From positions 1 to 50,890 of the forward strand of contig SVGO01000005.1 in NCBI GenBank assembly GCA_015056305.1: DNA of 50,890 nt. Reading direction: 5' to 3'. The translations under genes were made by a program, and so were the position numbers. A model generated the notes under the pieces. That model was not told the origin of the DNA, ran no database searches, and saw only the letters and a program-made list of their open reading frames with translations. The DNA is from Clostridiales bacterium (GTDB lineage Bacteria > Bacillota > Clostridia > Christensenellales > Aristaeellaceae). Of this stretch, positions 4,642-45,858 are shown piece after piece; the first letter of the stretch is position 1, and each line of letters starts with the position of its first letter.

Positions 4642-4713
4642 CGCGAAGCGTACATGGGGTCAAGGGGCGAAGTCCCTTGGCGGGTTTCAGGGCGGCAGCC
4701 CTGACGTATCCCC
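4642..4713 (+). repeat. Dispersed hairpin repeat, copy R2
   Basis: A complete copy in plus orientation: GCGAAGCG, then outer strand TGGGG, P2 hairpin CAAGGGGC-GAA-GTCCCTTG (4661-4679), linker GCGGGTTT, P3 hairpin CAGGGC-GGCA-GCCCTG (4688-4703), ACGTAT, and the outer partner CCCCA. It lies directly after proS, in the opposite orientation to that gene. Confidence 0.75.
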
Positions 4714-4715
4714 AA

Positions 4716-6446
4716 TTACAGACGGCAGTTCAGCTTGGCGAGCTCCTCGACCACGTGATTGTACACGAACTCGACGGCCTCGTCGATGGGCTTTTTTTCC
4801 TGCATGGACTTGTCGCGGGCAGAGATCTCGATGGTGCCGTTCTTGAGGCCCTTCGGGCTGACGACCACGCGCACCGGCACGCCGAACAGGTCCGCGTCGG
4901 AGAACATGACGCCGGCGGACACGCTGCGGTCATCCCAGATGACCTCCACGCCCTTGGCGGTCAGCTCGTCGTAGATCTTCTGGGAGATCGCGGCGACCTC
5001 CTCGTTGTCCGCGCGCAGGGAGCACAGATGCACCTGCCACGGCGCGATGGAGATCGGCCAGATCGGGCCGTAATCGTCGCGATGCGCCTCGCAAACGGAC
5101 GCAGCCAGACGGCCCACGCCGATACCGTAGCAGCCCATGATCGGGTGCTTGAGGGTGCCGTCCTGATCGACATAGGTCATGCCCATGCTCTCGGTGTACT
5201 TGGTGCCCAGCTGGAAGATGTTGCCGACCTCGATGCCGCGGGAGGTGTAGATGCTCGGCTTGCCGCAGACCGGGCAGATGCCGCCGTCAAATGCCTTGGC
5301 CACGTCCACATACTCGACCTCGCCCATCTCGCGCGCGATGTTGAAGCCGGTGTAGTGCGCGTCGGTCTCGTTCGCGCCGGTGACGAACCAATTCACGCCC
5401 TTGAGGGACGCATCGTACACCACGCGCACGTCGGCGGGCAGGCCCTTCGGGCCGATGAAGCCAGCGCACAGGCCACTCTCCATGGTGATCTCCGCCGGAT
5501 GGATCTCGGCCTTGATGTGGTTGCGCAGCTTGGTCTCGTTGATATCCAGATCGCCGCGCAGGAAGGCGACGACGTACTTGTCGGTCAGGTTTTCCTGATA
5601 GACGACGGCCTTACAGGTCTGCTTCGGGGTCACCTTCAGGAACGCGCACAGATCCTCGATGGTCTTGACGTTCGGGGTCTCAACCTTGGTCAGCTCGGCG
5701 GTCTCGCCGGCCTCGACGCCATCGACGATGCAGGGCGCGGCTTCCATGTTCGCGCGGTAGTCGCAGTCATGGCACAGCACGATGGTATCCTCGCCGACCG
5801 GGGTGAGCAGCATGTACTCGTGGGAGACCTTGCCGCCCATCATGCCGCTGTCGGAGGCGACGGCAACGACGTCGCCCACGCCCGCGCGGAAGAAGATGCG
5901 GTTATACGCATCGTAGCAGACCTGATAGTAGCGCTCCAGATCCTCCTGAGAGGTATGGAAGGAGTACGCGTCCTTCATGGTGAACTCGCGCACGCGGATC
6001 AGGCCGCCGCGGCAGCGCGGCTCATCGCGGAACTTGGTCTGGATCTGATAGATCATGAACGGATACTGGGTGTAGCTGTCGGCGACGTCGCGCACGAAGT
6101 GGACGGAGGCCTCTTCGTGGGTCATGCCCAGCACCATGCCCGCGCCGGAGCGGTCGGTGAAGCGCAGCAGCTCGCTGCCGATGGAGTCATAGCGGCCGGA
6201 CTCCTGCCACATGCTCGCCGGCATGGTCACCGGGAAGAGCAGCTCCTGGCCGTCGATGCGGTTCATTTCCTCGCGGATGATCTTCTCGATCTTGGCGGTG
6301 ACGCGCTTGGTCGCCGGGAACAGGGTGTAGATGCCGTTGCCGACGGGCTTGATGTAGCCGCCGCGCATCATGAGCGCCTGGCTGGCGATGACGCAGTCGG
6401 CGGGGGTTTCCTTGTAGCGCTTGGAAACGAGATTCTTGAGCTTCAT
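4716..6446 (-). CDS. proS: Prolyl-tRNA synthetase, bacterial type with editing insertion
   Basis: A 576-residue class II aminoacyl-tRNA synthetase that charges tRNA-Pro. The class II core is clear: motif 2 in FRDEPRCRGGLIRVREFTM (about residue 140-158) and motif 3 in GCYGIGVGRLAAS (about 440). Between them lies the roughly 180-residue insertion domain that edits mischarged Ala-tRNA-Pro, so this is the bacterial ProS1 form. The C-terminal anticodon-binding domain starts near IAPWQVHLC. The start ATG at 6446 has GGAGAGA upstream. The gene is preceded by a textbook T-box leader with its own promoter, so expression should respond to uncharged tRNA-Pro. Confidence 0.96.
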   Translation of the reverse strand: MKLKNLVSKRYKETPADCVIASQALMMRGGYIKPVGNGIYTLFPATKRVTAKIEKIIREEMNRIDGQELLFPVTMPASMWQESGRYDSIGSELLRFTDRSGAGMVLGMTHEEASVHFVRDVADSYTQYPFMIYQIQTKFRDEPRCRGGLIRVREFTMKDAYSFHTSQEDLERYYQVCYDAYNRIFFRAGVGDVVAVASDSGMMGGKVSHEYMLLTPVGEDTIVLCHDCDYRANMEAAPCIVDGVEAGETAELTKVETPNVKTIEDLCAFLKVTPKQTCKAVVYQENLTDKYVVAFLRGDLDINETKLRNHIKAEIHPAEITMESGLCAGFIGPKGLPADVRVVYDASLKGVNWFVTGANETDAHYTGFNIAREMGEVEYVDVAKAFDGGICPVCGKPSIYTSRGIEVGNIFQLGTKYTESMGMTYVDQDGTLKHPIMGCYGIGVGRLAASVCEAHRDDYGPIWPISIAPWQVHLCSLRADNEEVAAISQKIYDELTAKGVEVIWDDRSVSAGVMFSDADLFGVPVRVVVSPKGLKNGTIEISARDKSMQEKKPIDEAVEFVYNHVVEELAKLNCRL

Positions 6447-6557
6447 AATCTTCTCTCCTTCATGAAATCATAGAGAATTACGCAGAAATCCTTGCAGCGA
6501 GCACAAAGCTGCTTTGTTTTGTCAGGTTCTTCGGAGGTGGAGGTGGCCACAGGCCAC

Positions 6558-6815
6558 AAAAAAGCTTCGCCCCCGTATTGCAGGGGCGAAGCTGAACTTC
6601 GCGGTACCACCTTGCTTCAGCGCAGATTCATACGATGCTGCGCCCTTGCCTGCTCTGTATCGGGAGCGCCCGGCGGATTTCATGATCTCTTCTGAGACGA
6701 TGCGTTCTCCGCGTACTCGGGAGGCCGGAGCATGCCGTTGCAAAACACGCGCCTTGCAGCCATGGGCGCGCTCTCTGGGGAATTGCTTGGGGTTGCTTTC
6801 TCCGTCAATGTACGA
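6558..6815 (-). promoter_or_regulatory. T-box riboswitch leader of proS
   Basis: On the minus strand the leader carries the conserved T-box AAGGTGGTACCGCG (6613-6600), which pairs with the tRNA acceptor end, just before a strong terminator hairpin AGCTTCGCCCC/GGGGCGAAGCT (6592-6563) ending in TTTTTT. A long structured stem I region lies upstream. Uncharged tRNA-Pro should stabilise the antiterminator. I could not place the specifier codon with confidence; a CCU/CCC candidate lies in CCTCCC at about 6724-6719. Confidence 0.92.
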
Positions 6816-6820
6816 ACATT

Positions 6821-6849
6821 ATTATAACCGCTCATGCGCAAACGTGCAA
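6821..6849 (-). promoter_or_regulatory. Promoter of the proS T-box transcript
   Basis: Minus-strand TTGCAC (6849-6844), 17-bp spacer, TATAAT (6826-6821). Transcription would start near 6814, just before T-box stem I. Confidence 0.8.
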
Positions 6850-6913
6850 GCCCCATTTGCGCAAAGATTCCGGGTCACAACAGAGAAAAATGGCAGAAGC
6901 GTGTGCATTCGGA

Positions 6914-7865: not shown

Positions 7866-7915
7866 TTGAAAGATGGACGAATAGTGAAGGATCGTGTTTT
7901 GCGCCCGTAGCGTCG

Positions 7916-10170: not shown

Positions 10171-10246
10171 TGGTGGAGCATAGGGGAGTCGAACCCCTGA
10201 CCTTTTGAATGCCATTCAAACGCGCTACCAACTGCGCTAATGCCCC
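10171..10246 (-). tRNA. tRNA-Ala (anticodon GGC)
   Basis: The minus strand folds as a full cloverleaf: acceptor GGGGCAT/ATGCTCC (one G-U), D-arm GCGCAGTTGGTAGCGC, anticodon arm TTTGA-ATGGCAT-TCAAA giving anticodon GGC, and T-arm AGGGG-TTCGACT-CCCCT. Discriminator A and an encoded CCA (10173-10171) are present. A perfect promoter lies just upstream. Confidence 0.95.
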
Positions 10247-10309: not shown

Positions 10310-10601
10310 GGACTCGAACCGTTGTCCTCCGGCCTCTCATCCGCCACTGGCGGCGGCCTGCGGGCAACCTCCATCGATATGCGTTCACCATGACGGAATC
10401 ACTGTTTGAATTCAGAAGAGCGGAACCAAATAAAAAACCACCCGTAATGGGTGGTAGGGCAAGATGGACTCGAACCGTTTTCCGTCCGCTGCATTGCGCC
10501 CACAGGGCGCCGCGACCGGAAAACCTCCATCGATGTGCGTTCACCATGACGGAATCACTGTTTGAATTCAGAAGAGCGGAACCAAATAAAAAACCACCCG
10601 T
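10310..10601 (-). repeat. Two tandem 156-bp tRNA-like units downstream of tRNA-Val
   Basis: Two units repeat with a 156-bp period. Each has the T-arm-like GGTTCGAGTCC (minus strand; at about 10320-10310 and 10476-10466), a 42-bp variable hairpin core, then an 80-bp block (10366-10445 and 10522-10601) that is identical except for one base and ends in a CCACCC/GGGTGG terminator. The block contains ACATCGATGG or ATATCGATGG, matching the tRNA-Val anticodon arm 3' side. The cores differ in sequence but both fold, with stems GTTTTCC/GGAAAAC and GTTGCCC/GGACAAC. No full cloverleaf can be drawn, so these are tRNA-derived pseudogenes or an unrecognised small RNA. Confidence 0.7.
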
Positions 10602-10616
10602 TAAGGGTGGTTTTTT
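10588..10616 (-). terminator. Terminator of tRNA-Val
   Basis: CCACCC-GTTAA-GGGTGG with six A residues on one side and six T on the other, directly after the tRNA-Val 3' end on the minus strand. The same hairpin recurs at 10432-10454 in the tandem unit. Confidence 0.75.
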
Positions 10617-10619: not shown

Positions 10620-10695
10620 TGGTGGTGCTTACTGGACTCGAACCAGTGACCCCATCGATGTGAACGATGTGCTCTACCAACTGAGCCAAAGCACC
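10620..10695 (-). tRNA. tRNA-Val (anticodon CAC)
   Basis: Minus-strand cloverleaf: acceptor GGTGCTT/AAGCACC, D-arm GCTCAGTTGGTAGAGC, anticodon arm CATCG-TTCACAT-CGATG giving CAC, T-arm ACTGG-TTCGAGT-CCAGT, discriminator A and encoded CCA (10622-10620). It reads the GUG valine codon. Confidence 0.95.
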
Positions 10696-14129: not shown

Positions 14130-14321
14130 GACGTTGGGAGAACGTTGGGGCCGCGGCCCCAAACCCCGCCTGGGGATTTCATCCCCAGACCCCATTATCG
14201 CTTCGCGTACGCGAAGCGAGGGTATAAGATAATATATCTTAAAACCGCCGCGAAGCGAAAAAGGGTCAAGGGACAATGTCCCTTGCAGGGGTTCGGGGAC
14301 AGCGTCCCCGAGCGTAACCCC
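14130..14321. repeat. Dispersed hairpin repeat, inverted pair R3 (hisD-hisC gap)
   Basis: Two copies face away from a shared central hairpin. Left copy (minus orientation): P3 TGGGGCC-GC-GGCCCCA (14146-14161) and P2 CTGGGGAT-TTC-ATCCCCAG (14170-14188). Centre: P4 CGCTTCGCG-TA-CGCGAAGCG (14199-14218), then AAGAT/ATCTT. Right copy (plus): P2 CAAGGGAC-AAT-GTCCCTTG (14267-14285) and P3 CGGGGAC-AGC-GTCCCCG (14294-14310). The pair fills nearly all of the 223-bp gap between hisD and hisC. Confidence 0.8.
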
Positions 14322-14338
14322 AAGAAAGGATAAAGCCT

Positions 14339-16613: not shown

Positions 16614-16890
16614 AACGCGAAGAGAACGTTGGGGACGCTGTCCCCAAGCCCCTGGCAGGGACATTGTCCCTGCACCCATTATCGCTGTGCATACGCGCAG
16701 CGAGGGTATAAGGAATATGATCTTAAAACCGGCGCGAAGCGAAGAAGGGGTTCGGGGTTCGGGTTTACCCGAACTGGTCCGGCAATGAATGAAGCCCCGG
16801 CGGGGCTTCAGAACCGGACTGACCGACGAGCGTCGAGCGAGGAGAGGAATGTCCCCGAGCAGGTTTTAGGGCGGCAGCTCTAACGTCTTC
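16614..16890. repeat. Dispersed hairpin repeat, inverted pair R4 with expanded loop (hisH-hisA gap)
   Basis: Left copy (minus orientation): P3 TTGGGGAC-GCT-GTCCCCAA (16629-16647), P2 CAGGGAC-ATT-GTCCCTG (16656-16672). Central P4 CGCTGTGC-ATAC-GCGCAGCG (16683-16702). Right copy (plus) starts with GCGAAGCGAAGAAGGGG; its P2 stem TCGGGG...TCCCCGA is split by about 95 extra nt that themselves contain GAAGCCCC-GGC-GGGGCTTC inside GGTCCGG...CCGGACTGACC. P3 is AGGGC-GGCA-GCTCT. The whole 312-bp gap is this element. Confidence 0.75.
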
Positions 16891-21072: not shown

Positions 21073-21090
21073 GTACATATGCAGTTCAAT

Positions 21091-21166
21091 CCGCCGCGAA
21101 GCGAAGAAGGATGCAGGGACAATGTCCCTGCCAGGGGTTTGGGGACAGCGTCCCCAAACGTTTCCT
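21091..21166 (+). repeat. Dispersed hairpin repeat, copy R6
   Basis: Plus orientation: CCGCCGCGAAGCGAAGAAGG, outer AGGA, P2 CAGGGAC-AAT-GTCCCTG (21114-21130), linker CCAGGGG, P3 TTTGGGGAC-AGC-GTCCCCAAA (21138-21158), CGTT, outer TCCT. The outer pair AGGA/TCCT differs from GGGG/CCCC elsewhere yet still pairs. It ends 2 nt from the carrier-protein stop codon. Confidence 0.8.
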
Positions 21167-21168
21167 GA

Positions 21169-21396
21169 TCATTCGTCAGCCAAACGCTCGACCATCGCGA
21201 CCATCGCGTCGACGGAATTGAAATTCTGCGGGATGATTTCGGTCGCCGGGATAGAAATGTCGAATTCGTCGTTGAGCGCGCCGATGAGCTGGATGATGTC
21301 CAGAGAAGAGAGGATGCCGTCGTCGATCAGGGTCATGCAGGACTCGACGTCGTCGTCCACGATGTCGGAAAGGATGTCAAGAATCTGGTCTTTCAT
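21169..21396 (-). CDS. Acyl/aminoacyl carrier protein (DltC-like)
   Basis: A 75-residue acidic phosphopantetheine carrier. The attachment site is in DDGILSSLDIIQLIGAL, with Ser 31 as the expected serine; the residue before it is Ser, where most carriers have Asp. GGAGAC before ATG 21396 and the normal carrier length support this start rather than a longer one. It is the last gene of a leftward cluster with an adenylation enzyme, a PLP decarboxylase, a DltD-like protein and an MBOAT protein, so it most likely carries an activated amino acid rather than a fatty acid. Confidence 0.85.
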   Translation of the reverse strand: MKDQILDILSDIVDDDVESCMTLIDDGILSSLDIIQLIGALNDEFDISIPATEIIPQNFNSVDAMVAMVERLADE

Positions 21397-24240: not shown

Positions 24241-24413
24241 TGCGCGAAGCGAAGAAGGGAGTTTGAGGGACAACGTCCCTCAAGCGGGTTTCAGGGACCG
24301 GAGCCTGCCGCGCCCAGTGGGCGAAACAGGCAGACGAAGCGTCGGGAATCGCAAGGAGCGGCAATATGCCGCGATTATGCGAGTTTCCTGGACCGGCAGC
24401 CCTTACGTTCCCC
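24241..24413 (+). repeat. Dispersed hairpin repeat, copy R7 with expanded P3 loop
   Basis: Plus orientation: GCGCGAAGCGAAGAAGGGA, P2 TGAGGGAC-AAC-GTCCCTCA (24264-24282), linker AGCGGGTTT, then P3 CAGGG-ACCGG...CCGG-CAGCCCT whose loop holds about 95 nt including GCCTG/CAGGC and AATCGCA...TGCGAGTT hairpins, then TACGT and TCCCC. The inserted AATCGCA hairpin resembles the P0 hairpin of copies R8-R10. Orientation is antisense to the surrounding cluster. Confidence 0.7.
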
Positions 24414-28929: not shown

Positions 28930-29195
28930 GTGGATACTAAGCTACGTAAGCCCTCATTGTCGCTCCTGGGGATCGTCCCCCCTGCGCCAAACTACAGTGG
29001 CGAACAACGTTCGCCCGCGGTCATCAAGAATGAACCTTCGATCCTCTGGGCGCTTATACCTCCCAGGCGTTCGGAAGGGGGTATGGGAGTCCAGAGGGAT
29101 GTAGGGGGAAATCCGAATTTCCCCCTCATCCTTCTGGGCCCAGCGCAGCGCGTAGCTTGTTGCGCTTTGCGCATAGATTCTATCGAAGTATAGCG
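28930..29195. other. Palindrome-rich intergenic DNA without a convincing gene
   Basis: This part of the 650-bp gap contains several stems: GGGGA-TCG-TCCCC near 28970, ATCCTCTGG (29040s) with CCAGAGGGAT (29090s), and AGGGGGAAAT-CCG-ATTTCCCCCT near 29105-29128. A 109-codon open frame on the minus strand spans it and the adjoining repeat but has no ribosome site, no domain and no coding character, so I do not call it a gene. It may be a folded RNA or a composite repeat island attached to copy R8. Confidence 0.5.
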
Positions 29196-29330
29196 GAATC
29201 TCAATTGTCGCCTGGCGGCTCCTCTGAGATTCTTGCTTGGCTGGCGCTTCGCGCATGGGATACGTTGGGGATTTCATCCCCAAACCCCTGACAAGGGACT
29301 TCGCCCCTTGACCCCATGTACGCTTCGCGC
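29196..29330 (-). repeat. Dispersed hairpin repeat, copy R8 with P0 hairpin
   Basis: Minus orientation. P0 stem GAATCTCA (29196-29203)/TGAGATTC (29225-29232) with loop GTCGCCTGGCGGCT; then GCGCTTCGCGCATGGG, ACGTT, P3 GGGGAT-TTC-ATCCCC (29267-29281), P2 CAAGGGAC-TTC-GCCCCTTG (29292-29310), CCCATG, and GCTTCGCG. Outer strands CATGGG/CCCATG pair over six bases. From TGCGCTTCGCGCATGGG on, about 70 bp are nearly identical to copy R10. Confidence 0.8.
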
Positions 29331-30838: not shown

Positions 30839-32100
30839 TCAGGGTGCGCTTCAAGCGCGCCAGCAAGCTGTATGATTTTGATCCGGCCGGACTGGATCTG
30901 CATAACGGCATGCATGTTGTGACGGAAACCGCGCGCGGCGTGGAGCTGGGCGAGTGCATGTCCGGCATCATGGAAGTGCCCGACGAGCGCATTGCCGCGC
31001 CGCTTAAGCCGATCATTCGCATCGCGACCGAGCAGGATATGCTCACCCAGAAGCGCAACGAGGAATACGAAAAGGAAGCGTTCGATATTGCCATCGAGCG
31101 TATTGCCGAGCATAATCTGGAGATGAAGCTGGTCGACGTGGAATACGCGTTTGACCACTCGAAGATCATCTTCTATTTCACGGCCAACGGCCGCGTGGAT
31201 TTCCGCCTGCTGGTCAAGAATCTGGCCAGCATCTTCAAGACCCGCATCGAGCTGCGCCAGATCGGCGTGCGCGACGAGGCAAAGATGCTCGGCGGCATCG
31301 GTCCGTGCGGACGGCCGATCTGCTGCCGCACGTTCCTGGGCGATTTTACGCCGGTGTCGATCAAGATGGCGAAGGAGCAGAATCTTTCGCTCAATCCGAC
31401 CAAGATTTCCGGCCTGTGTGACAGGCTGATGTGCTGCCTGAAGTACGAGCAGGATCAGTATGAGGCAACCCGCAAGCGCATGCCGCGCGTGGGCCGCGAG
31501 ATCATCACGCCGGACGGTGTGGGCACGATCAATGCGATCAACGTGCTGGAGGAGACCGTGCGCGTGCGCATCGCTGTGGGCGATACGTTTGAGCTGCGCG
31601 AGTATCCCATCGACGACTGCCAGAAACCGGAGCAATACAGCGCGCCTGCCAGCGAAAAGGCGGCGGAGAAGAACGAGCGCCGCGAGAAGCCGGACAAGGC
31701 AGAGAAGAACGAAAAGCCTGAGAAGAACGACAAGGCCGACAGGGGCGAGCGCCGCGAAAAGGCGGACAAGCCGGACAGGGCCGAGCGCCGCGAAAAGGCA
31801 GAAAAGGCCGAGAAGGGCGAGCGCCGCGAGAAGCAGGACAAGGGCGATAAGGGCGACAGGCAGGAGCGTGCGCCGAAGCAGAAGCGCCCAGAACGTCCGG
31901 AGCGCGGCGAGAAGCAGAGCAAAGGCGAGCATTTCGAGCAGCAGGGAGAACGGGCAAGCAAGCCGCGCAATGAAAAGCGCGCAAAGCAGCAAAAACCGAT
32001 GAATCCCAATGCCGCGCCGAAGAGCGCGGAAAGCAGGCCTGCGGCCGAAGCGGACGCGCTTGAAATCGTGGAAGAGACGGGCGTAGAAGACCTGCTGTAA
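30826..32100 (+). CDS. ricT: RicT (YaaT), PSP1-domain protein with long charged tail
   Basis: A 424-residue protein. Residues 1 to about 265 are the PSP1/RicT core, with cysteines in GGIGPCGRPICCRTFLGDF and LCDRLMCCLKYEQDQYE that bind the FeS clusters of the RicAFT complex in Bacillus, which acts on RNase Y-mediated mRNA maturation. Residues of about 280-400 are a low-complexity Lys/Glu/Arg/Asp tail with repeats of ERREKADKPDR type, absent from the short Bacillus protein. GGAGGA 9 nt before ATG 30826 supports the start. It is the last gene of the darA operon. Confidence 0.92.
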   Translation: MAMVIRVRFKRASKLYDFDPAGLDLHNGMHVVTETARGVELGECMSGIMEVPDERIAAPLKPIIRIATEQDMLTQKRNEEYEKEAFDIAIERIAEHNLEMKLVDVEYAFDHSKIIFYFTANGRVDFRLLVKNLASIFKTRIELRQIGVRDEAKMLGGIGPCGRPICCRTFLGDFTPVSIKMAKEQNLSLNPTKISGLCDRLMCCLKYEQDQYEATRKRMPRVGREIITPDGVGTINAINVLEETVRVRIAVGDTFELREYPIDDCQKPEQYSAPASEKAAEKNERREKPDKAEKNEKPEKNDKADRGERREKADKPDRAERREKAEKAEKGERREKQDKGDKGDRQERAPKQKRPERPERGEKQSKGEHFEQQGERASKPRNEKRAKQQKPMNPNAAPKSAESRPAAEADALEIVEETGVEDLL

Positions 32101-32578: not shown

Positions 32579-33895
32579 ATGACGATGGCCAGACGCAGAC
32601 GGCGCAGGGTTTCCCTGGGCACGATCTTTATGCTGCTGCTGACGGCGCTGGTCGTTGTCGGCTGCGTTCTTTTTTTCTCGCTTCTGGTTGGCGATGATCT
32701 CTACGAGCGTACAGGCGAATTGATCCGTTCCCTGTCCGAGCAGGGATTGTTTGATGCGTCGTTCAGCTTTGAGATCCCGGAGCCGACGGCTGTGCCGGCC
32801 TATATGTGGCTGGAGGATACGCCCGTGCCGACGCCGCCGCCCGCAACGCCTACGCCCGTGCCTGCGCCTGCAACGATCACGATTGCCGCTGCCGGCGCTG
32901 TGTATGCGCCCAAGGCTGTGCGCGAGAGCGTGCTCGCGGATACGCGCTACGATTTTGAGCCCGTGTTTTCCGGGCTTGGCGATACGCTGCTGGATGCAGA
33001 TCTGGCCATCGCGACGCTGGAGACGACCACCGCTGGCCGGGATAAGGGCTTTGACAACCACAACACGGCCCCGGAGATTCTGGACGCCCTGCGCAGCAGC
33101 GGCGTGGATCTGCTGTCCCTGGCGACGGAGCATGCGTTGGATAAGGGCTATGAGGGGCTGGATCTGACGGTCAGCGAACTCACGGCACGGGGTCTTGCGT
33201 ATGCCGGCGTGCAGCAGGAGGGCGGCGGCCGGACAATGATGATGCGCATCGGCGGCGTGCAGGTGGCTGTGCTGGCGTATACATACGGCCTGAGCGACAA
33301 TGGCCGCGAGGAGACGAATGGCGATGAACGCGGGGCTGTGCCGCAGATGAACCGGGAACAGATGCTCGAGGACGTACGGCAGGCGCGCGTAAACGGCGCA
33401 AACGTCGTGATCGTGCTGCCGCACTGGGGCACCAAGAATATCGCACAGACGCCGGTGAATGTACAAAGGCTTGCCGGAGAACTGGCGCAGGCGGGCGCGG
33501 ATATCATCCTGGGGACGCATCCCAACGTGCCGCAGGGCACGGAGCGTATCCGCACGACGCGCGCCGACGGACTGGAATATGACACGGTTGTGTGCTATTC
33601 GCTGGGCAATCTGCTCACCGATGCGCGCGCGGCAGAAAATACCGCGGGCATGGTCGCGCATGTGAGCGTGACGTATGATCCTGTGACGCGCAGGACGACG
33701 ATCGGCGAGATGTACTGCACGCCGGTGTATATCGCCAGACAGCGCGTGGAGGGCGAGAATGTTTACCGCGTCGTGGACGCGGAGAGCGAGACGGCGCTGC
33801 AGGCGCTGACAGAGCAGGAGCAGCAGGCGGCGCGCGAGGCGGTTGAACTGATCCGCAGGGCGACGCAGGCGGACGAGCAGGAGGGACATGGCTGA
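32579..33895 (+). CDS. CapA-family (PGA_cap) metallophosphatase-like membrane protein
   Basis: A 438-residue protein with a strongly basic N-terminus (ARRRRRRVS) followed by one membrane span (FMLLLTALVVVGCVLFF), a Pro/Thr-rich linker (PVPTPPPATPTPVPAP), and a CapA-type domain. NHNTAPEILDALRSSGVD and LPHWGTKN are the usual conserved blocks; in this family Asp/His/Asn residues form a calcineurin-like metal site. CapA proteins are linked to poly-gamma-glutamate capsules but single homologues like this are widespread with other roles. The start at 32579 is best supported by AAAGGG; ATG 32585 is an alternative. The stop overlaps the next start by one base. Confidence 0.85.
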   Translation: MTMARRRRRRVSLGTIFMLLLTALVVVGCVLFFSLLVGDDLYERTGELIRSLSEQGLFDASFSFEIPEPTAVPAYMWLEDTPVPTPPPATPTPVPAPATITIAAAGAVYAPKAVRESVLADTRYDFEPVFSGLGDTLLDADLAIATLETTTAGRDKGFDNHNTAPEILDALRSSGVDLLSLATEHALDKGYEGLDLTVSELTARGLAYAGVQQEGGGRTMMMRIGGVQVAVLAYTYGLSDNGREETNGDERGAVPQMNREQMLEDVRQARVNGANVVIVLPHWGTKNIAQTPVNVQRLAGELAQAGADIILGTHPNVPQGTERIRTTRADGLEYDTVVCYSLGNLLTDARAAENTAGMVAHVSVTYDPVTRRTTIGEMYCTPVYIARQRVEGENVYRVVDAESETALQALTEQEQQAAREAVELIRRATQADEQEGHG

Positions 33896-34929
33896 TGAGA
33901 ATTGTGGATTACGGCGTGCAGGTGGGCAGCCTGACGCGCGGAAAGCTCAATAAAATCACAGATGTGCCGGGCGTGCGCGTGGGTCATGCAACCATCCACG
34001 ACGATCGCCATCACACGGGTGTGACGGTGATCATGCCGTGTGATGACAATATGTTTAAAAATAAGCTGACGGCAGCGTCGTTCGTGCTCAATGGATTCGG
34101 CAAGACGCAGGGCTTGGTGCAGATTGACGAGCTGGGCACGCTGGAAACGCCGATCGCGCTGACCAATACGCTGAACGTCGGCAGGGTGCACGATGCGTTG
34201 GTGGGCTATATGGCAAAGCGCTGCGAGGCGGATCAATTCCCCATGCGCTCGATCAATCCGGTCGTGGGCGAGTGCAACGATGCGTCGTTCAATGAGATCA
34301 CGGACAGACCGGTGAATGAATCGCATGTGCTTGCGGCCATCGACGCGCTGTGCGAGGATTTTGAGGAGGGCTGCGTTGGCGCGGGTGCGGGCACCATCTG
34401 CCATGGGCTCAAGGGCGGCATTGGCTCGGCGTCGCGCCTGCTTGATATCGCCGGAAAGACGTATACGCTGGGCGTGCTGGTGCAGAGCAATCACGGGACG
34501 CTGGAGGAGCTGCACGTGATGGAGCGCCCTCTGGGCCGCGAGATCATCGCAAAGCGCAATGCGCAGCCCAAGCAGGAGCCGCAGGATCGCGGCTCGATCA
34601 TGATGGTGCTGGCGACGGATCTGCCCGTGAGCGACCGTCAGCTGCGCAGGATTCTCAAGCGCTGCGCCGTTGGTCTTGCCAGAAACGGATCGTACTTCGG
34701 TCATGGCAGCGGCGACGTCATGATCGGCTTCACGACGGCCAATCGCGTGCCGCATGGCGGTATGCACCGTGTGATTGCGCATCAGGTGCTCACCGAGCAT
34801 ACGCTGGAAATGGCCTTCCGCGCGGCGGCAGAGAGTACGCAGGAGGCTGTGCTCAATTCCATGACGGCGGCCGTCGAAATGACCGCCCTCGACGGCAAGG
34901 TTTACGAATCCATCACCAAATACCTTTAA
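33895..34929 (+). CDS. P1-family (DmpA/S58) aminopeptidase
   Basis: A 344-residue Ntn-hydrolase-fold peptidase. DmpA enzymes self-cleave before a nucleophilic serine; here that site is Gly-Ser 234 in QDRGSIMMVLATDLP. Upstream motifs TDVPGVRVGHAT, LTNTLNVGRVHDA and VGAGAGTICHGLKGGIGSASR match the family. No signal peptide is seen, so it is probably cytoplasmic and trims N-terminal residues or hydrolyses peptide amides. It is translationally coupled to the CapA-like gene, but a functional link is not established. Confidence 0.9.
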   Translation: MRIVDYGVQVGSLTRGKLNKITDVPGVRVGHATIHDDRHHTGVTVIMPCDDNMFKNKLTAASFVLNGFGKTQGLVQIDELGTLETPIALTNTLNVGRVHDALVGYMAKRCEADQFPMRSINPVVGECNDASFNEITDRPVNESHVLAAIDALCEDFEEGCVGAGAGTICHGLKGGIGSASRLLDIAGKTYTLGVLVQSNHGTLEELHVMERPLGREIIAKRNAQPKQEPQDRGSIMMVLATDLPVSDRQLRRILKRCAVGLARNGSYFGHGSGDVMIGFTTANRVPHGGMHRVIAHQVLTEHTLEMAFRAAAESTQEAVLNSMTAAVEMTALDGKVYESITKYL

Positions 34930-35182
34930 ACCGCCGCGAAGCGAAGAAGAGGACGTATGGGGACGCCGTCCCCATACCCCTGGCAGGGACATTGTCCCTG
35001 CACCCATTACGCTGTGCTATCGCACAGCTAAGAGAAGCATCTTAAAGCTGCCGCGAAGCGAAGAAGGGGTCTGGGGACGATGTCCCCAGGCAGGTTTTAG
35101 GGCGGCAGCCCTAACGTTCTCCTTATGCGCGAAGCACCGAAAGCAAGAACCGCAGCGGAGCCGAAGGCGACTATTGCGGTTC
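34930..35182. repeat. Dispersed hairpin repeat, pair R9 with P0 hairpin
   Basis: Left copy (minus orientation): P3 ATGGGGAC-GCC-GTCCCCAT within 34955-34977 and P2 CAGGGAC-ATT-GTCCCTG (34984-35000). Central P4 GCTGTGC-TATC-GCACAGC (35011-35028). Right copy (plus): P2 CTGGGGAC-GAT-GTCCCCAG (35071-35089), P3 AGGGC-GGCA-GCCCT (35099-35112), AACGTT, outer CCTT, GCGCGAAGC, then P0 GAACCGCA (35147-35154)/TGCGGTTC (35175-35182) with loop GGAGCCGAAGGCGACTA. Everything between the peptidase stop and the next terminator belongs to it. Confidence 0.8.
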
Positions 35183-35205
35183 CAGTATAGCAACATCAAA
35201 CAACC

Positions 35206-35237
35206 AAAAAGAGACTGCCAGAAGGCAGCCTCTTTTT
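35206..35237. terminator. Bidirectional terminator between convergent units
   Basis: GAGACTGCC-AGAA-GGCAGCCTC flanked by AAAAA and TTTTT. It ends both the P1 peptidase transcript and the leftward glycosyltransferase. Confidence 0.8.
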
Positions 35238-35238
35238 G

Positions 35239-36399
35239 TTATATCCTTGCTTCGATAAAATCCGCGGCTTCGTTCACGCCGCCGCACGCTGCAAAATCTT
35301 CGGCGATTTCCTGTGCGGTGCGCTTGTATCTGTGATCCGTCAGCACCGCTTCCAGCGCCCGGCGGATCGACTTTGCAGATGCGCGCTTGAGCCGGAGCCC
35401 TGCGCCCAGCTCCTGCACACGCCCTGCGACGGCCTCCTCCTCGCTGTGCTGGGGAAAGAGCAGCATCGGCACGCCGCATAGCAGGGCTTCTGAGACGGAA
35501 TTCATACCGCAGTGCGTGAGGAATGCGTCGGCGCTCGACAGGATTTCAAGCTGATTTACACGCGGAAAGATCCGCACATTTTCGGGAATCGCGCCCAGCG
35601 ACGCAGGATCGACCTTGTTTCCGATGGAGATGACTGCGTCGCAGTCCATGATGGACAGCGCACGAATGCAGCGCCGATAAAAAGCGGGCGCATTGTGCAG
35701 CACCGTGCCCAGCGATATATATACCAGAGGCCGTGCATGTGCTGTGCGCGGATAGCGCGCCATGACCGACGGGCCGACGAAGGCATAGTTCTCGCCGAAG
35801 GTTTCGGCGGATGGCTGAAAGCGGCGGCTGGTGTAGACGATGGTGTCGGTCAGCGCATCATTCTGGATTACGTCGACAAAGCTGCGTACATCGTATCCAT
35901 GATCGCGCAGACGCTGCATGCTTCTTTCGATCCGGGGCATGCCGAGCACCGTGCGGATAATTTCCGGCAGGCGCGGCTTCATGCGCGAGGCTGTCTGCGT
36001 ATTGAAGGCGAGGGTCGTCGTCGAGCAGACGAAAGGAACGCCGTGCTTTTTTGCCAGCAGCTTGCTGTAGAAACAGACAGAGTCGCCGACGATCAGCGCG
36101 GGCTTTTCCCGGGTGATGTCCGCAGCGATCCGGTCATCCAGCGCAAGCGTGGTGTCCGTCACCATCTCAATGAGCGCGGCGAAATCCTTGCCTGCGATTC
36201 TGTCGATATTCTCAGGCGCGGGCGGCATATACGGCTCAATGGAAACAAACTCTGCGCCTGCCGCTGCAATTCTTTCACGGAATTCCTCGGTTTCATAGTA
36301 GTGCACGCGATGCCCGCGCGCGCTTAGTTCGCGCACCAGAGGCAGCGTGGGGTTCACGTGCCCGTGCGCAGGAATGGAGAAAAAGAAGATGCACGCCAT
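35239..36399 (-). CDS. Glycosyltransferase, GT1/MGT (macrolide glycosyltransferase) type
   Basis: A 386-residue GT-B enzyme. The N-terminal acceptor domain starts with SIPAHGHVNPTLPLVREL, and the C-terminal nucleotide-sugar site is FLTHCGMNSVSEALLCGVPML followed by PQHSEEE. Such enzymes put a sugar on macrolides, flavonoids or sterol-like small molecules and often give self-protection. ATG 36399 lies 4 nt past the upstream Arc-like gene stop, so it is probably co-transcribed with the SPFH and Arc-like genes; that grouping is unusual and its meaning unclear. Confidence 0.88.
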   Translation of the reverse strand: MACIFFFSIPAHGHVNPTLPLVRELSARGHRVHYYETEEFRERIAAAGAEFVSIEPYMPPAPENIDRIAGKDFAALIEMVTDTTLALDDRIAADITREKPALIVGDSVCFYSKLLAKKHGVPFVCSTTTLAFNTQTASRMKPRLPEIIRTVLGMPRIERSMQRLRDHGYDVRSFVDVIQNDALTDTIVYTSRRFQPSAETFGENYAFVGPSVMARYPRTAHARPLVYISLGTVLHNAPAFYRRCIRALSIMDCDAVISIGNKVDPASLGAIPENVRIFPRVNQLEILSSADAFLTHCGMNSVSEALLCGVPMLLFPQHSEEEAVAGRVQELGAGLRLKRASAKSIRRALEAVLTDHRYKRTAQEIAEDFAACGGVNEAADFIEARI

Positions 36400-40796: not shown

Positions 40797-40837
40797 GGAT
40801 ATTTAGTTCATTAAGTTGGGGATCATCGCCTGCGGGC

Positions 40838-40998
40838 GGGACCTCATCCGTCACGGCTGACGCCGCGCCACCTTCCCCATAGGGGAAGGTCTCCTTACTA
40901 CACGGGTAATACAATCTTTGATTTGAAAGAAGCATTCCAACAAGATTTGCCTTCCCCTATGGGGAAGGTGGCAGTCCAAAGGACTGACGGATGAGGTC
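40838..40998. mobile_element. MITE-like palindromic element
   Basis: A 161-bp non-coding unit bounded by 16-bp perfect terminal inverted repeats, GGGACCTCATCCGTCA (40838-40853) and TGACGGATGAGGTCCC (40983-40998). Inside are two further hairpins, ACCTTCCCC-AT-GGGGAAGGT-like, at 40870-40890 and about 40950-40970. Elements with CCTCATCCGTC ends and CCTTCCCC hairpins are familiar from many clostridial genomes. No transposase is encoded. Target duplication could not be identified. Confidence 0.75.
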
Positions 40999-41047
40999 CC
41001 CGGCCGCAGCCGGATCATTCGTGCAGACATTCTATTGAAGTGTATCA

Positions 41048-41183
41048 GAATCAAAAGCGTCGCCTATCGGCTTCTGTTTGATTCCCGCTTATCTTGCGCT
41101 TCGCGCATGGGCTACGTTGGGGATTTCATCCCCAAACCCCTGACAAGGGACTTCGCCCCTTGACCCCTTCTTCGCTTCGCGCC
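41048..41183 (-). repeat. Dispersed hairpin repeat, copy R10 with P0 hairpin
   Basis: Minus orientation: P0 GAATCAAA (41048-41055)/TTTGATTC (41077-41084) with loop GTCGCCTATCGGCTT; GCGCTTCGCGCATGGG; P3 GGGGAT-TTC-ATCCCC (41119-41133); P2 CAAGGGAC-TTC-GCCCCTTG (41144-41162); CCCC; CTTCTTCGCTTCGCGCCGG. It matches R8 nearly base for base through P3 and P2 while the P0 stem differs at four paired positions. Confidence 0.8.
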
Positions 41184-41223
41184 GGCTTTAAGCCTTAATC
41201 ACCTTTATCCCCCTTTTGCGCAG

Positions 41224-41260: not shown

Positions 41261-43189
41261 TTATTCGTCTGTTTCGGTTTCGGGCCTGAACAGCGTCGTC
41301 TCGTAGTACGTGCCGTTGCGCCAGAAGACCATCGTTGCGTTTTCGCCCTCGTACATGCTGCCGCGGGCCTTGCGCAGCGTGGCATCGCCGAGAATCGTGA
41401 TATCGCCGATGCCCATGATCACGTCGCCAGGCTCGATGCCAGCATCGTGCATCGGGGAGAAATCCTCAACGGACTTGACCCAGGCGCCCTGCGGCATGTT
41501 GTAGTGCGCCTGATAGACGGGCAGAACATAGTGCGTCGTCACACCCATGTCCCAGTCGGCATTCCTGCGCTCTTCCTCGGTGATTTCGATGGGCAGGGTG
41601 TGGATGAGACTGTCGCCTACGCCATAGTCAATGCCCACGAAAACCATCTGGTCGTCATCGACTTCGATCTTCTTGCCGCCTGCGCGATACCAGCTGATGG
41701 CTGCCTGCGCGCTGGAGAAGTAGATCTGATCGCTGACCTTGAAATGATGCGGCGCCGGCTTGCTGCTGCCGGAAGAAGAACCGAAGATGTCATCCTCCAG
41801 ACCCGGATAGTAGACGCCGCCGCCGGGCAGCGGATCGCCGGGCTGCATGCCCTCGTAGGGATTGTCATCATCATCGTCGTCGTCCTGCGGCACCCAGAAA
41901 TCGGAGTAATTATGCTCGTCGGCGATCGAGATATTCTTGATGGCGTATACGCGCTCAATCTCCTCGGCGAAGGTTTCTCTCATGTCGGCGGCCGTACCGT
42001 TGCTGAAGTAAGGAATGATCTTCATGCCGAAGGCCGTCAGGCGTTTGCCGGAGTTGTTGCGCACGCTGACCTGAATGCTGCCGTGATAATCGTAAGAGGT
42101 GATCTTCGCTCTCTGGATATAGAGCGGCTGGCTGCGGTTGTCCAGATACTTGATCTCGCTGCTCGTGCCCTTGCGGCCCAGCGCGCGGTCGTCAAAGAGC
42201 GTCGCCTGGGTCTGCGGATCGGCATCGCCGGTAGGCTCAAGGCCGTTGTCCCGCTGGAAGATGGCGATGATTTCGGCGGTGGATTCGGTATACAGCGTAT
42301 TGCTGTTTTCCTTTTTGAAATAGCCCAGCTCAAACAGACGGTGCTTGAGCGCGCGGACGTCTTCGCTTTTCACGCCCGGCGTCAGCGTCCTGTATTCAGA
42401 GAGCTCTTCGTCGGTATACTCGAACGGCTCGGCCAGCTCAATGTCGTTGATCGGATCGCAGGAGAGCACTGGATAGCGCTCGAGCACCGTGTCCGCGTCG
42501 ATTTCAACCAGCTCTGCCGGTCGCAGCTGACGGATCAGCTCGCTGAGGATATAGCCCTCCCGGCCGCTGCGGCGCACAATGACATGCAGCCAGGTCTCCT
42601 CTTCGTGCTCCACTTCGCCGATGATGCGAAGCGTCTCGCCGGAGCCGATCTGATCCAGGCGCATGCCGCCGGGCTTGCGGCGGAGATTAGCGTTCTTTTC
42701 CGTGCGGCCGATGCCCGGCTCTTCAAACACGATTTCGCCGGCGACGATGGAGTCGTCCGGTGTGGGTGTGGGCACAGGCGTCGGCGTAGGAACGGGCGTG
42801 GGAACCGGCGTCGGCGTCGGGGTCGGCGTGGGCGTTGGCACTGGTGTGGGTGTAGGCGTCGGGGTCGGCGTGGGAATGGGCTCCAGGAGACTGACCAGAA
42901 TGTAGCCCTTTTTGCCGGTTTTGGCAACACGGACATAGGCCCAGGCGTTTTCGCCCATGCCGATACGGTCGAGAATCTCGACCTTGGTGCCCTTGCTGAG
43001 TTTTTCGCGGATATCGCTGCGCTTGTCGGGATCCCTGCGCATGTTGGACTGCATGGCCGTCTGCAGGTATTCGCCTGAAGCGGTTTCGCTTTCGGCGAGC
43101 GCGGCGGACGGGAAGACCTCGGACAGAGGAGAAAGCGCAAGCGCACAGGCCGCCAGCGCGGCTGCGCAGAATTGAATCGGTGTAATCAT
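41261..43189 (-). CDS. Secreted multidomain protein: SH3, PT-rich linker, SH3, PG-binding, PDZ
   Basis: A 642-residue exported protein. Residues 1 to about 28 are a signal peptide. An SH3-like domain (SKGTKVEILDRIGMGENAWAYV in part) is followed by a Pro-Thr-Val linker of about 45 residues (repeats of PTPTPVPTP). A second SH3-like domain (about 165-225), a peptidoglycan-binding_1-like domain (VRALKHRLFELGYFKKEN), a middle beta region, an acidic run of eight Asp, and a C-terminal PDZ domain (HDAGIEPGDVIMGIGD) follow. No protease domain is present. It probably acts as a cell-wall-associated scaffold. GGAAAGGA before ATG 43189 supports the start; a consensus-like promoter lies upstream. Confidence 0.8.
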   Translation of the reverse strand: MITPIQFCAAALAACALALSPLSEVFPSAALAESETASGEYLQTAMQSNMRRDPDKRSDIREKLSKGTKVEILDRIGMGENAWAYVRVAKTGKKGYILVSLLEPIPTPTPTPTPTPVPTPTPTPTPTPVPTPVPTPTPVPTPTPDDSIVAGEIVFEEPGIGRTEKNANLRRKPGGMRLDQIGSGETLRIIGEVEHEEETWLHVIVRRSGREGYILSELIRQLRPAELVEIDADTVLERYPVLSCDPINDIELAEPFEYTDEELSEYRTLTPGVKSEDVRALKHRLFELGYFKKENSNTLYTESTAEIIAIFQRDNGLEPTGDADPQTQATLFDDRALGRKGTSSEIKYLDNRSQPLYIQRAKITSYDYHGSIQVSVRNNSGKRLTAFGMKIIPYFSNGTAADMRETFAEEIERVYAIKNISIADEHNYSDFWVPQDDDDDDDNPYEGMQPGDPLPGGGVYYPGLEDDIFGSSSGSSKPAPHHFKVSDQIYFSSAQAAISWYRAGGKKIEVDDDQMVFVGIDYGVGDSLIHTLPIEITEEERRNADWDMGVTTHYVLPVYQAHYNMPQGAWVKSVEDFSPMHDAGIEPGDVIMGIGDITILGDATLRKARGSMYEGENATMVFWRNGTYYETTLFRPETETDE

Positions 43190-43243
43190 AAGGTCCTTTC
43201 CGGCGCACGGTGTGCGCACGCGTGGAGTCGATATGTATATTTC

Positions 43244-43272: not shown

Positions 43273-43475
43273 CCGGTTTTTTCTGCGGCAGGGAAGGACG
43301 GTAATTCGGATTCGCCAAACTTCAAGCTGCTTTAGATTTGATCGGGGCATATATCGCGATTAATGTGTAACGAAATGATCAGCGGCTGCAGAATCGGAGT
43401 CTTAAAAACGTAATGTACCCGCAGATTTGCTATTTGGCAGAAGGAGAATAGATTGTTTATTTTTCTTCAAAGTCC

Positions 43476-43650: not shown

Positions 43651-43667
43651 AAAGGAGGTAGATTCCC

Positions 43668-45578
43668 ATGAAAAAGCTGATTTCCCTGCTGCTCGCCATG
43701 GCGATGCTGATGAGCTGCTTTGTCTTCCCGGCCTTTGCCGAGGAAGCCGATGCGGATATCGTGATCGTCGGCGCGGGCGGCGCGGGCCTGTCCGCTGCGC
43801 TGGAGGCTGTTGCCCAGGGCGCCGAGAAGGTCATCGTGCTGGAAATGACCGCCAAGACCGGCGGCGCGCTCAATTACACCAGCGGCTCCATGTCTGCCGC
43901 GGGCACCATCATCCAGAAGGAAGACGGCATCGAGGATACCGTTGACTCCTATGTGGCGGATATCATCAACAACGGCGACGACTTTGGCGGCCAGCCGAAT
44001 GAGACGCTCATCCGCACCTATGCCAATGAGGCTGCGCAGGTTTTTGACTGGCTCTACGAGAGCGGCATCAAGGACTGCACCTTCTCTGTGGATCGTGCGA
44101 CCGGCGCCCGCGCCGTATTCGCGCCGGAGCATGCGCTCTATTCCATTCAGCGCACCTACAAGGCCAGCCCGAAGGACCCGGCGAACTATAAGTCCGCTGC
44201 CCATGAGGTGCTCGATACCCTCGTGAAGGCCGACGGCCGCATCGAGGTCAAGCTCAACACCAAGGCCACTGAGCTTGTCGCCAACGACAAGGGCCAGGTG
44301 CTCACGGTCGTCACCGAGGACGGTGCGAGCTACACCGCCAAGAAGGCCGTCATCATGGCGACCGGCGGCTACTCTGCCAACGGCAAGCTGATGGCGGAGT
44401 TCGTTCCCTACGGCGGCTACTATCTGGCCGGCGGCGCTGCGGGTGCGGACGGCTATGGCCTGCGCATGATGCAGCAGGTGGGTGCGAACCTGACGTCTAT
44501 GGACGCCATTCCGACCTTCCCGATGGGCCTGGTCAGCAAGGATAACCCGAAGACCGGCGCCATCGCCTCCACCTACACCTGGAAGACCGGCGGCATCGTC
44601 GTCAACCAGAATGGCGAGCGCTTCTGCAACGAGACCGAAGCTAACCCGTCCATCCGCGAGGTTGCCCTTGAGGAGCAGCCGAATGCTGTGCAGTACGATA
44701 TCTTCACCGACAAGATCGTTGAGGATCTGCGCGCTGCGGGCCAGGCGTACTTCTACGATGCGTACTTCGCTGATGAGACCATGCGCGGCTACCACGTTGT
44801 GGAGAGCGCGGCGACCCTTGAGGAGCTGGCTGCGAAGATCGGCGTGCCGGCTGAGAACCTGACCAAGACCGTCGAGAGCTACAACGCGGCTGTCGAAGCC
44901 GGCGCTTCCGATGAGTTCGGCCGCCTCTACGACGGCACCACCAATACCTACAACATCTGCACCAACAAGATCGAGGGCGAAAAGTTCTACGCCATCCGCC
45001 TGCATGCGCTGTGCGTCATGACCCTGGGCGGCGTGACCGCGAACACCGACATGCAGGTCCTCGATGAGGCCGGCAATGTGATCCCGGGCCTGTACGCGGC
45101 GGGCGAGACCGTCGGCGGCATCTGGGGCAAGTTCGTCTCCGGCGGCACCGGCGTCATGGGCCCGATCGTCTTCGGTAAGATCGCCGCGCGTCATGCGATG
45201 GCCAGCGAGCCGGCCGAGGGCTATACCGTCAAGGCGGCTGCCAACGTGCTCAGCGAAGAGCTGTTCGTCAAGGAGAGTGCCGCGGGCGATCTGTTTGACA
45301 TGAGCGCTGCGCTTGCCGATGGCGAGTACACCGCCACCGTCGACGGCCAGGAAGGCCCGATGACCGTCAAGACCGTGATCGAAGGCGGCAAGATCGCTTC
45401 TGTTGAGGTCGTGGAGAATCACGAGACCCCGGCGCTGGCCGCTGGCGCGCTCGAGTCTATTCCGGCCAAGATCGTGGAGAGCAACAATGCTTCCGTCGAC
45501 GCCGTTGCCGGCGCGACCCTGACCTCCACCCGCATCATGAAGGCCGTCTCCGAGTGCCTGAGCGCTGCCTCCAAGTAA
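43668..45578 (+). CDS. Secreted FAD-dependent (fumarate-reductase-like) reductase with C-terminal FMN-binding domain
   Basis: A 636-residue flavoprotein. A signal peptide (residues 1 to about 24, ending PAFA) precedes the FAD_binding_2 fold with VGAGGAGLSAALEA (about 33-46), NYTSGSMSAAGT, ATGGYSANG and AGETVGGIWG. The C-terminal FMN_bind domain ends in DAVAGATLTSTRIM, where the Thr of GAT (about 617) is the expected covalent FMN site formed by an ApbE flavin transferase. Such exported reductases of Gram-positive anaerobes reduce fumarate, urocanate or other unsaturated acids using extracellular electron transfer. The substrate cannot be read. AAAGGAGG before ATG 43668 is a strong ribosome site. 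G+C and codon bias are very high, suggesting high expression. Confidence 0.9.
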   Translation: MKKLISLLLAMAMLMSCFVFPAFAEEADADIVIVGAGGAGLSAALEAVAQGAEKVIVLEMTAKTGGALNYTSGSMSAAGTIIQKEDGIEDTVDSYVADIINNGDDFGGQPNETLIRTYANEAAQVFDWLYESGIKDCTFSVDRATGARAVFAPEHALYSIQRTYKASPKDPANYKSAAHEVLDTLVKADGRIEVKLNTKATELVANDKGQVLTVVTEDGASYTAKKAVIMATGGYSANGKLMAEFVPYGGYYLAGGAAGADGYGLRMMQQVGANLTSMDAIPTFPMGLVSKDNPKTGAIASTYTWKTGGIVVNQNGERFCNETEANPSIREVALEEQPNAVQYDIFTDKIVEDLRAAGQAYFYDAYFADETMRGYHVVESAATLEELAAKIGVPAENLTKTVESYNAAVEAGASDEFGRLYDGTTNTYNICTNKIEGEKFYAIRLHALCVMTLGGVTANTDMQVLDEAGNVIPGLYAAGETVGGIWGKFVSGGTGVMGPIVFGKIAARHAMASEPAEGYTVKAAANVLSEELFVKESAAGDLFDMSAALADGEYTATVDGQEGPMTVKTVIEGGKIASVEVVENHETPALAAGALESIPAKIVESNNASVDAVAGATLTSTRIMKAVSECLSAASK

Positions 45579-45746
45579 GCAGCGTTCCGCTGCACCATGT
45601 GACGCTTCGCGCTTGCTTCTGACGGCGCCGCATCCGGCACCCTGCCGGGCAAGTGCGATAGCTGATGCGTCCTGAAGCCGTTTTGTTCGCGCAGAGGGCG
45701 CTCCAAAACTGCCGTGGACACACATCGGTGAGATATAACAAATAGC

Positions 45747-45781
45747 AACGCCTTTCGCGTGAACGGAAGGCGTTCTTTTTT
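45747..45781 (+). terminator. Terminator after the flavin reductase region
   Basis: AACGCCTT...AAGGCGTT around TCGCGTGAACGG, followed by CTTTTTT. The 170 bp between the stop and this hairpin contain a small GCAGCG/CGCTGC hairpin and no gene. Confidence 0.75.
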
Positions 45782-45785
45782 ATAC

Positions 45786-45858
45786 AGCGCGAAACGAAGA
45801 AGGGTCAAGGGACAATGTCCCTTGCAGGGGGTTAGGGACGGCGGCCCCAACGTCCCCC
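45786..45858 (+). repeat. Dispersed hairpin repeat, copy R11
   Basis: Plus orientation: GCGCGAAACGAAGAAGGGT, P2 CAAGGGAC-AAT-GTCCCTTG (45806-45824), linker CAGGGGGTT, an imperfect P3 AGGGACGGCGGCCCC, AACGT, CCCCC. The GCGAAGCG box is altered to GCGAAACG and P3 has a mismatch, so this copy may be decaying. Confidence 0.7.

Follow-up and report, generated by a model that had tools for sequence, protein, structure and literature searches.

A stretch of 50,890 nucleotides (nt) from a Clostridiales metagenome-assembled genome (MAG; assembly GCA_015056305.1, contig SVGO01000005.1, positions 1 to 50,890), here called the window, carries dispersed copies of a hairpin-rich unit of approximately 85 nt, which is probably a non-autonomous mobile palindromic repeat of the general kind represented by repetitive extragenic palindromic (REP) sequences, bacterial interspersed mosaic elements (BIMEs) and miniature inverted-repeat transposable elements (MITEs). 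The unit is repeated, mostly intergenic and paired, its presence varies between species, in some genomes it lies inside MITEs bounded by terminal inverted repeats (TIRs), and its stems are maintained. The reading as mobile DNA follows from this MITE carriage, from presence and absence at orthologous sites, from the inverted pairs and from the modules nested within copies.

As the original prediction had proposed, the source genome (G000, a 2.62-Mb MAG in 159 contigs) and its relatives were searched for the element. A 77-nt copy (window 21085-21161) served as the first query and gave 51 matches in G000, and a covariance model trained on 14 copies and then run over this genome gave, by scored candidates, at least 150 copies. 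Seven sister genomes contain 73 to at least 108 copies each, and among the 25 genomes of the genus, G000 included, which were counted under stricter filters than those behind the figure of at least 150, eight have at least 73 matches, four have 10-39 and thirteen have 0-3. The window holds 13 clear copies, found with nhmmer and the covariance model, together with a partial copy starting at 34924 and a weak copy, at 3233, that was detected by nhmmer only; the predicted dispersal across 4.6-45.9 kb is thus confirmed, and the repeat was correctly described as something other than a simple sequence repeat. The linker CAGGGGTTT is enriched in the window (17 found, 6.3 expected), and the box GCGAAGCG, with one mismatch allowed, is not (132 matches, 132.6 expected). 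Contig ends pile up at the repeat in the JALFHA contigs L112, L117, L133, L137, L143 and L151, an indication that assembly fails at long copies of near identity and that the copy numbers counted in MAGs are too low.

The ends of the unit are sharp (CTTNAA ... CGTNCCC), and it has no TIR of its own. In edge profiles of 63 and 75 copies from the source genome, conservation begins abruptly at CTTNAA, 12 nt ahead of GCGAAGC, and fades at CGTNCCC, approximately 8 nt past the last hairpin (P3), with CGT being absent from the 7 nt after P3 in 29 of 75 copies. Inside the unit stand, in order, the GCGAAGC mini-hairpin P0, the hairpin P2, the linker CAGGGGTTT and the hairpin P3, and the arrangement originally described for the window (GCGAAGCG-AAGAAG-P2-CAGGGGTTT-P3-AACGT) was recovered there. 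GCGAAGC is carried by 91 of the 107 copies from the source genome and its relatives (contigs chosen by pattern being excluded), and in some copies P0 is a longer hairpin. The pair flanking P0 covaries, being C-G in 189 and T-A in 8 of 207 copies, with 198 paired as compared to 181.5 expected under independence, counts that include contigs picked by a pattern containing GCGAAGCG. Folding of four copies, with DNA and with RNA parameters, yielded z-scores between -5.0 and -1.3. Further palindromes are present at loci of the source genome such as L048 and L059; they are of the types CCTTCCCCTATGGGGAAGG and GGGAGCTGTCAGCGAAGCTGACTGAGGGAG, and the second type likewise has a C-GAA-G loop.

The stems of P2 and P3 covary, as had been claimed from the window alone, and the structure is under constraint. 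The set comprised the 230 of 242 non-redundant copies that parse into both hairpins (12 were dropped), with one mismatch per stem tolerated and G.T and A.C treated alike. Among the 213 copies whose P2 loop is 3 nt long, 1674 of 1704 P2 cells are Watson-Crick, as compared to a mean of 1190 and a maximum of 1242 in 200 arm swaps. In the 117 copies with a 3-nt P3 loop, 878 of 936 P3 cells are Watson-Crick against approximately 608 after arm swaps, and the shift is smaller in the 105 with a 4-nt P3 loop (683 of 840 against 595). P2 occurs as 83 distinct stem-loop-stem strings, and its seventh pair, paired in 210 of 213 copies, uses all four Watson-Crick types. In alignment A3, which consists of 84 distinct rows from the source genome and was fitted to the model, 260 cells are altered on both sides against 66 in shuffles, a value reached by none of 500 shuffles; the measure of further pair types is equalled by 28 of the 500. 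The outer helix P1, for which covariation had likewise been claimed, does not stand up: the best stem in 76 copies of the source genome averages 3.92 bp against 4.00 with the arms swapped, that in all 228 copies 3.90 bp against 3.84 (maximum 3.93), the changes in A3 fall mostly on one side only, and in the RNAalifold structure of 26 sequences P1 has three pairs, among which a double change is seen once. Since the closing helix is unsupported, so is the three-way junction suggested in the original prediction, which was rejected.

Carriage of the unit by other elements is seen in the genome of locus L171, where six near-identical 194-nt elements with TIRs of approximately 20 nt and with different flanks each contain it. 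This genome has 100 TIR-like matches (up to two mismatches) and none for the reversed pattern; by eye, the spacing of the TIR pairs inspected fits elements of approximately 194 or 288 nt, and 32 of the 100 matches are an end variant outside such pairs. A differently ended carrier of 414 nt, with GGATA ends, lies at 40797-41210 of the window and holds a unit, and G003 is without the insert; the end motif of this carrier has 32 matches in G000 (up to three mismatches) as compared to one for the control. The copies and the carrier in the window are as follows.

3233-3297, plus strand: weak, decayed copy (nhmmer E 7e-4)
4635-4718, plus strand: copy with P2 CAAGGGGC/GTCCCTTG and P3 CAGGGC/GCCCTG, its 3' end abutting the stop codon of the coding sequence (CDS) 4716-6446 (minus strand)
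14131-14216, minus strand: left copy of the hisD-hisC inverted pair, with a long P0 hairpin
14238-14325, plus strand: right copy of the hisD-hisC inverted pair
16615-16713, minus strand: left copy of the hisH-hisA inverted pair
16722-16885, plus strand: right copy of the hisH-hisA pair, with a structured module of ~90 nt (~16757-16847) inserted close to its P2 loop
18387-18478, plus strand: hisF-hisIE copy, P3 directly joining a Shine-Dalgarno-like GGAGG ahead of hisIE, P1' absent
21084-21171, plus strand: complete copy, source of the first query
24237-~24415 (outer coordinates approximate), plus strand: copy with module M1 (~24297-24395) inserted at its P3 loop
29251-29339, minus strand: copy at one end of a ~400-nt repeat (28931-29329), of which contig C143 of G000 has a 97% identical copy
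34924-34974, plus strand: partial copy, 5' box only, beginning at the stop codon of CDS 33895-34929
34943-35034, minus strand: left copy of an inverted pair
35041-35128, plus strand: right copy of the same inverted pair
40797-41210, no strand assigned: MITE-like carrier GGATATTTAGTTCATTAAG ... CTTAATCACCTTTATCC, just past a terminator-like stem
41103-41192, minus strand: copy within this carrier
45777-45864, plus strand: divergent copy with imperfect P0 GCGAAACG

Although CDS make up 85% of the window, 69 of 76 copies of the source genome lie outside them, as called by a hexamer-based caller (7 of 76 inside; an earlier caller, with 37 of 76 inside open reading frames, was not used). The 3' end points toward a convergent stop in 39 copies, at a median of 19 nt from P3, and stands ahead of a codirectional start in 28, at a median of 53.5 nt; the 5' side is farther from genes, with medians of 131.5 and 150 nt measured from P2, and both orientations to the neighbouring genes occur. 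Of 17 pairs of close neighbours (up to 200 nt apart) at loci of the source genome, 15 are in the -+ order, in which the 5' ends face each other, two are in the +- order, one of these formed by the overlapping partial copy, and none is in tandem, so that these loci show the alternating inverted copies in composite units that characterize BIMEs.

Three insertions interrupt the his operon of the window (genes assigned by Pfam), at hisD-hisC, hisH-hisA and hisF-hisIE. At hisD-hisC a similar inverted pair is found in G017, G003 and G009 and a single altered unit in G011, making the pair common to three or four species, and only 11-16 nt separate the genes in G010, G018, G021 and G019. The hisH-hisA junction has 3-5 nt in G017, G003 and G009, 8 nt in G018 and G019, and a different pair in G010, and the site at 34930-35238 is empty in G003 and G009 and occupied in G011 and G017. 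The hisD-hisC intergenic region of G000 is identical to that of G003 at 171 of 217 positions as compared to 407 of 705 fourfold sites, and to that of G017 at 163 of 215 as compared to 515 of 758, intergenic identities that skip gap columns and are thereby favoured; for G009 it is 103 of 163, with 68 gap columns and without a fourfold comparison. Slow evolution is not general, because the hisF-hisIE identities (67 of 102 for G003; 65 of 100 for G017, under its fourfold figure) are not clearly above the fourfold figures. Between G000 and G003, the hisD-hisC pair differs by in-place double changes, C-G to T-A at P0 and two pairs of P3, which may also reflect exchange between copies; G017 has entirely different haplotypes of the right-hand P2 and P3.

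The residual mismatches bear on which nucleic acid folds. In the window group (window genome, relatives and named MAGs), P2 has 22 mismatches in 1891 pairs, of which 19 are G.T, one is A.C and two are others; counted by haplotype, the G.T excess is 5 to 1, one haplotype supplying 15 of the 19 G.T cells. The 32 P2 copies from G031, a genome of another family, show 15 G.T, three G.A, one G.G and no A.C, with the G.T cells falling into eight sensible haplotypes (a ninth is a mis-parse), and ten copies from G025 have one G.T, two T.G, one T.T and no A.C. P3 is without wobble bias, since its 25 mismatches in 1613 pairs of the window group comprise nine C.C, five A.C, three G.A, two G.T, one T.G and five others (three G.T or T.G as compared to five A.C), and G031 has one G.T and one A.C. 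The bias in P2 toward G.T and not A.C means that the fold of one strand matters; it points to the plus strand folding as a single strand, either as RNA or as top-strand single-stranded DNA, and it speaks against both a symmetric cruciform and a purely neutral correction by template switching. Of the structured RNA or cruciform DNA under selection that had been put forward, the constrained structure is retained and the symmetric cruciform is disfavoured.

The same bias, 19 to 1 in the window group (5 to 1 by haplotype) and 15 to 0 in G031, would be accounted for by a cis-acting structured RNA of untranslated or intercistronic mRNA regions, affecting stability, processing or translation and dispersed on mobile DNA, and so would the copies within the his operon, with one pair common to several species, and the Shine-Dalgarno-like motif within 20 nt after P3 in 9 of 75 copies of the source genome. 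This alternative is nevertheless regarded as rather unlikely. Functional RNAs are usually richer in wobble pairs, whereas the pairs of the window group are approximately 98-99% strictly Watson-Crick, a rarity of mismatches that is partly built in because the parse tolerated one per stem; the wobble bias does not extend to P3; and with copies in both orientations to the neighbouring genes, many would be transcribed as the complement. The Rfam comparison (release 15) advised in the original prediction also returned no family for the element, as only two tRNAs in the window reach the gathering score. The best of the weak matches, to the Clostridiales-2 RNA, scored 20.1 bits where the gathering score is 58.6; it was not seen again at nine other loci and was judged to be chance. 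A terminator scan of 34900-35260 placed the clear terminator on a separate stem at 35205-35238, with weak matches at P3 of the copy 35041-35128 and at a stem at 34967-34952.

Nearly perfect stems that are altered as blocks could also arise if the palindromes were neutral and their arms were kept identical by template switching during replication, which can create and mend stems in a single event (PMC8794818) and would yield covariation without selection. That explanation is considered improbable and is already weakened by the constancy of the unpaired parts and of the box, with GCGAAGC in most copies, by the great preponderance of G.T over A.C in P2, and by the hisD-hisC pair changing more slowly than fourfold sites, which is not clearly so for the hisF-hisIE copy.

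The interpretation as a mobile DNA repeat has itself to be weighed against several observations. No clear target duplication accompanies the carriers, an identical single flanking base being seen by eye in 10 of 13; no larger insert between MITE ends and no autonomous parent was seen by eye in the L171 genome; and no insert of 160-3500 nt splits the element in a scan that covered splits near the P2 and P3 loops. The 25 largest clusters of 847 predicted proteins encoded beside copies look, by eye and without hidden Markov models, like ordinary orthologues, and none resembles a transposase. Outside the source genome the order of neighbours is mixed, with tandem neighbours in three of four pairs in relatives and two of ten in named MAGs, and a functional RNA would likewise be compatible with the slow evolution in the operon and with the wobble bias of P2. 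The search by transposase family was limited to PF01797 (Y1), the family of the REP-associated tyrosine transposases (RAYTs), and this family does not track the copies: it was not found in the copy-rich G010, G011, G017, G019 and G021 (genomes 75-96% complete), and G002, G004, G015, G020 and G023 (likewise 75-96% complete) have two to five matches and zero copies.

These last results bear directly on the proposal that the element is a REP family moved by a resident RAYT of the IS200/IS605 type. Its size, inverted pairs and intergenic location are those of a REP, REP apices described in PMC2817692 also hold GCGaaGCGC-like loops, and Y1 genes do occur in carriers of the element: G003 (78 copies) has one PF01797 gene with an open frame, G005 (17 copies) and G009 (18 copies) have three matches each, and G000 has a degenerate RAYT/Y1 gene at C97:16924-17187 (L031 1351-1836). 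However, that remnant, which contains an in-frame stop, encloses a different palindrome, GTAGGGGAGGGGCTCTGCTCCTCCC, of the GTAGGGG type, and a similar palindrome stands just upstream of it and likewise near elements in L015 and L016, perhaps representing a separate REP-like family. The ends of the element read CTTNAA and CGTNCCC, with no GT[A/G]G head beside the palindrome, and the degenerate G000 gene, the one PF01797 gene whose flanks were inspected, is not flanked by inverted copies. With Y1 genes and copies thus dissociated, a RAYT was rejected as the mobiliser and the proposal is considered very improbable.

The nested insertions are the most unusual part of the element. A total of 24 distinct copies are split by inserts of 62-104 nt belonging to two clearly different modules, with a third, at L097, being a variant or another. 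The break in the profile lies 0-3 nt ahead of the P2 loop (positions 33-36) in 21 of the 24 and at the foot of P2 (positions 29-30) in three. The scan behind these figures is blind to P3 and found 25 splits, of which L212 was discarded because its two parts, 1639 nt apart, are unrelated partial matches. Modules also sit at P3 apices, at 24297 in the window and at L100, L176 and L189, and L102 has one module in P2 and another in P3; the window modules 16757-16847 and 24297-24395 are mutually unrelated. Module M1 is present in five genomes, with 20-52 occurrences in each, and of 29 sampled copies from these, 24 adjoin the element in the same orientation and 25 in either, with the element on both sides of ten, as compared to 254 of 2000 random positions near an element in either orientation. 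The conclusion on M1 rests on this adjacency. An early stem test found stems of at least six pairs at 9 of 14 module sites against 31 of 300 random ones, a weak control, and in the boundary test boundaries were definable in 14 of 29 copies, with at least six pairs in six, the swap control giving 0-4 of 17. Three inserts directly follow GGG ahead of P2, which makes a sequence target GGG as possible as a hairpin target. Tentatively, then, the element may be a modular, strand-specific two-hairpin family, present in three or more families of a single Clostridia order, at whose apices other small mobile structured modules dock. If so, the hairpins would be extruded as single strands in vivo and a hairpin-recognising mobiliser would exist, and insertions near the loops may be a natural record of hairpins serving as DNA targets.

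A pattern scan of an 84,980-species collection gave at least 95 stretches, and among the matches listed all are from Clostridia or Clostridiales MAGs, many from animal guts and one from Candidatus Ventricola gallistercoris; six IMG/VR contigs also match the pattern. Other families of the order yielded weaker matches, 69 in G031, eight in G025 and one in G038. The G031 and G025 units inspected are without the GCGAAGC box, and in them P2 and P3 are joined by a linker such as TTGGGGTTT or CAGAGGTTT; they look like a distant form of the same element. On G031 contigs C8, C17, C21 and C30, related two-hairpin units recur along one strand at a spacing of approximately 125-147 nt, which suggests tandem arrays in another family. 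The window also contains two 146-nt repeats, 84% alike, at 10310-10611 between tRNA genes at 10174-10246 and 10623-10695 (both on the minus strand), and short repeats within open reading frames at 31664-31945 and 42759-42881, with 9-nt and 18-nt steps.

As a mobile repeat, the element would spread as DNA through enzymes provided in trans, which would recognise the folded form of its single strand, and it would persist where it lands beside stop codons or between operon genes, presumably because stem-loops in untranslated and intercistronic regions are tolerated or useful, as is known for REPs. Its mobiliser should be a findable enzyme. Repeats of this sort fill many intergenic regions in these uncultured gut bacteria and interrupt operons such as his, and their covarying stems can lead to their being taken for regulatory RNAs. 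Among candidate structured RNAs of the human microbiome, 250 of 3161 were palindromic, and 20 of them may, according to the authors, be REPs or another class (PMC8040213). In open-licence papers, at the level of titles and the starts of abstracts, no description of the present repeat was found.

With regard to known systems, P0 reads exactly CGCGAAGCG, the GAA-loop mini-hairpin of the stable DNA fragment d(GCGAAGC), whose melting temperature is given as 78 C (PMC4686876), with the difference that the latter was used there as a synthetic stabiliser and that the fold of P0 in vivo is predicted. With the REPs and BIMEs of Gammaproteobacteria the element shares the high copy number, the intergenic palindromes, the inverted pairs and the preserved palindromy (PMC2817692), as well as the role of target for other insertions (PMC1525189). 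It differs from them in having no GTAG or GTGG head and no RAYT association, in its occurrence in Clostridia, and in consisting of two or three tandem hairpins where a REP has one. MITEs such as Correia/NEMIS, ERIC and CIR are similarly highly base-paired and approximately 100-200 nt long (PMC2229807). Some copies of the element do sit in TIR-bearing elements, but the 85-nt unit, without a TIR or clear target duplication of its own, occurs both free and in two differently ended carriers. The BOX elements of Streptococcus pneumoniae are another modular stem-loop repeat in a Firmicute. The comparison with REP, BIME and MITE families called for in the original prediction thus comes out mixed, the BIME-like inverted pairs agreeing, TIRs being present in the carriers but not in free copies, and the REP head and the RAYT lacking, and the element is a variant that stands alongside REPs, BIMEs and MITEs and departs from REPs in these two defining features.

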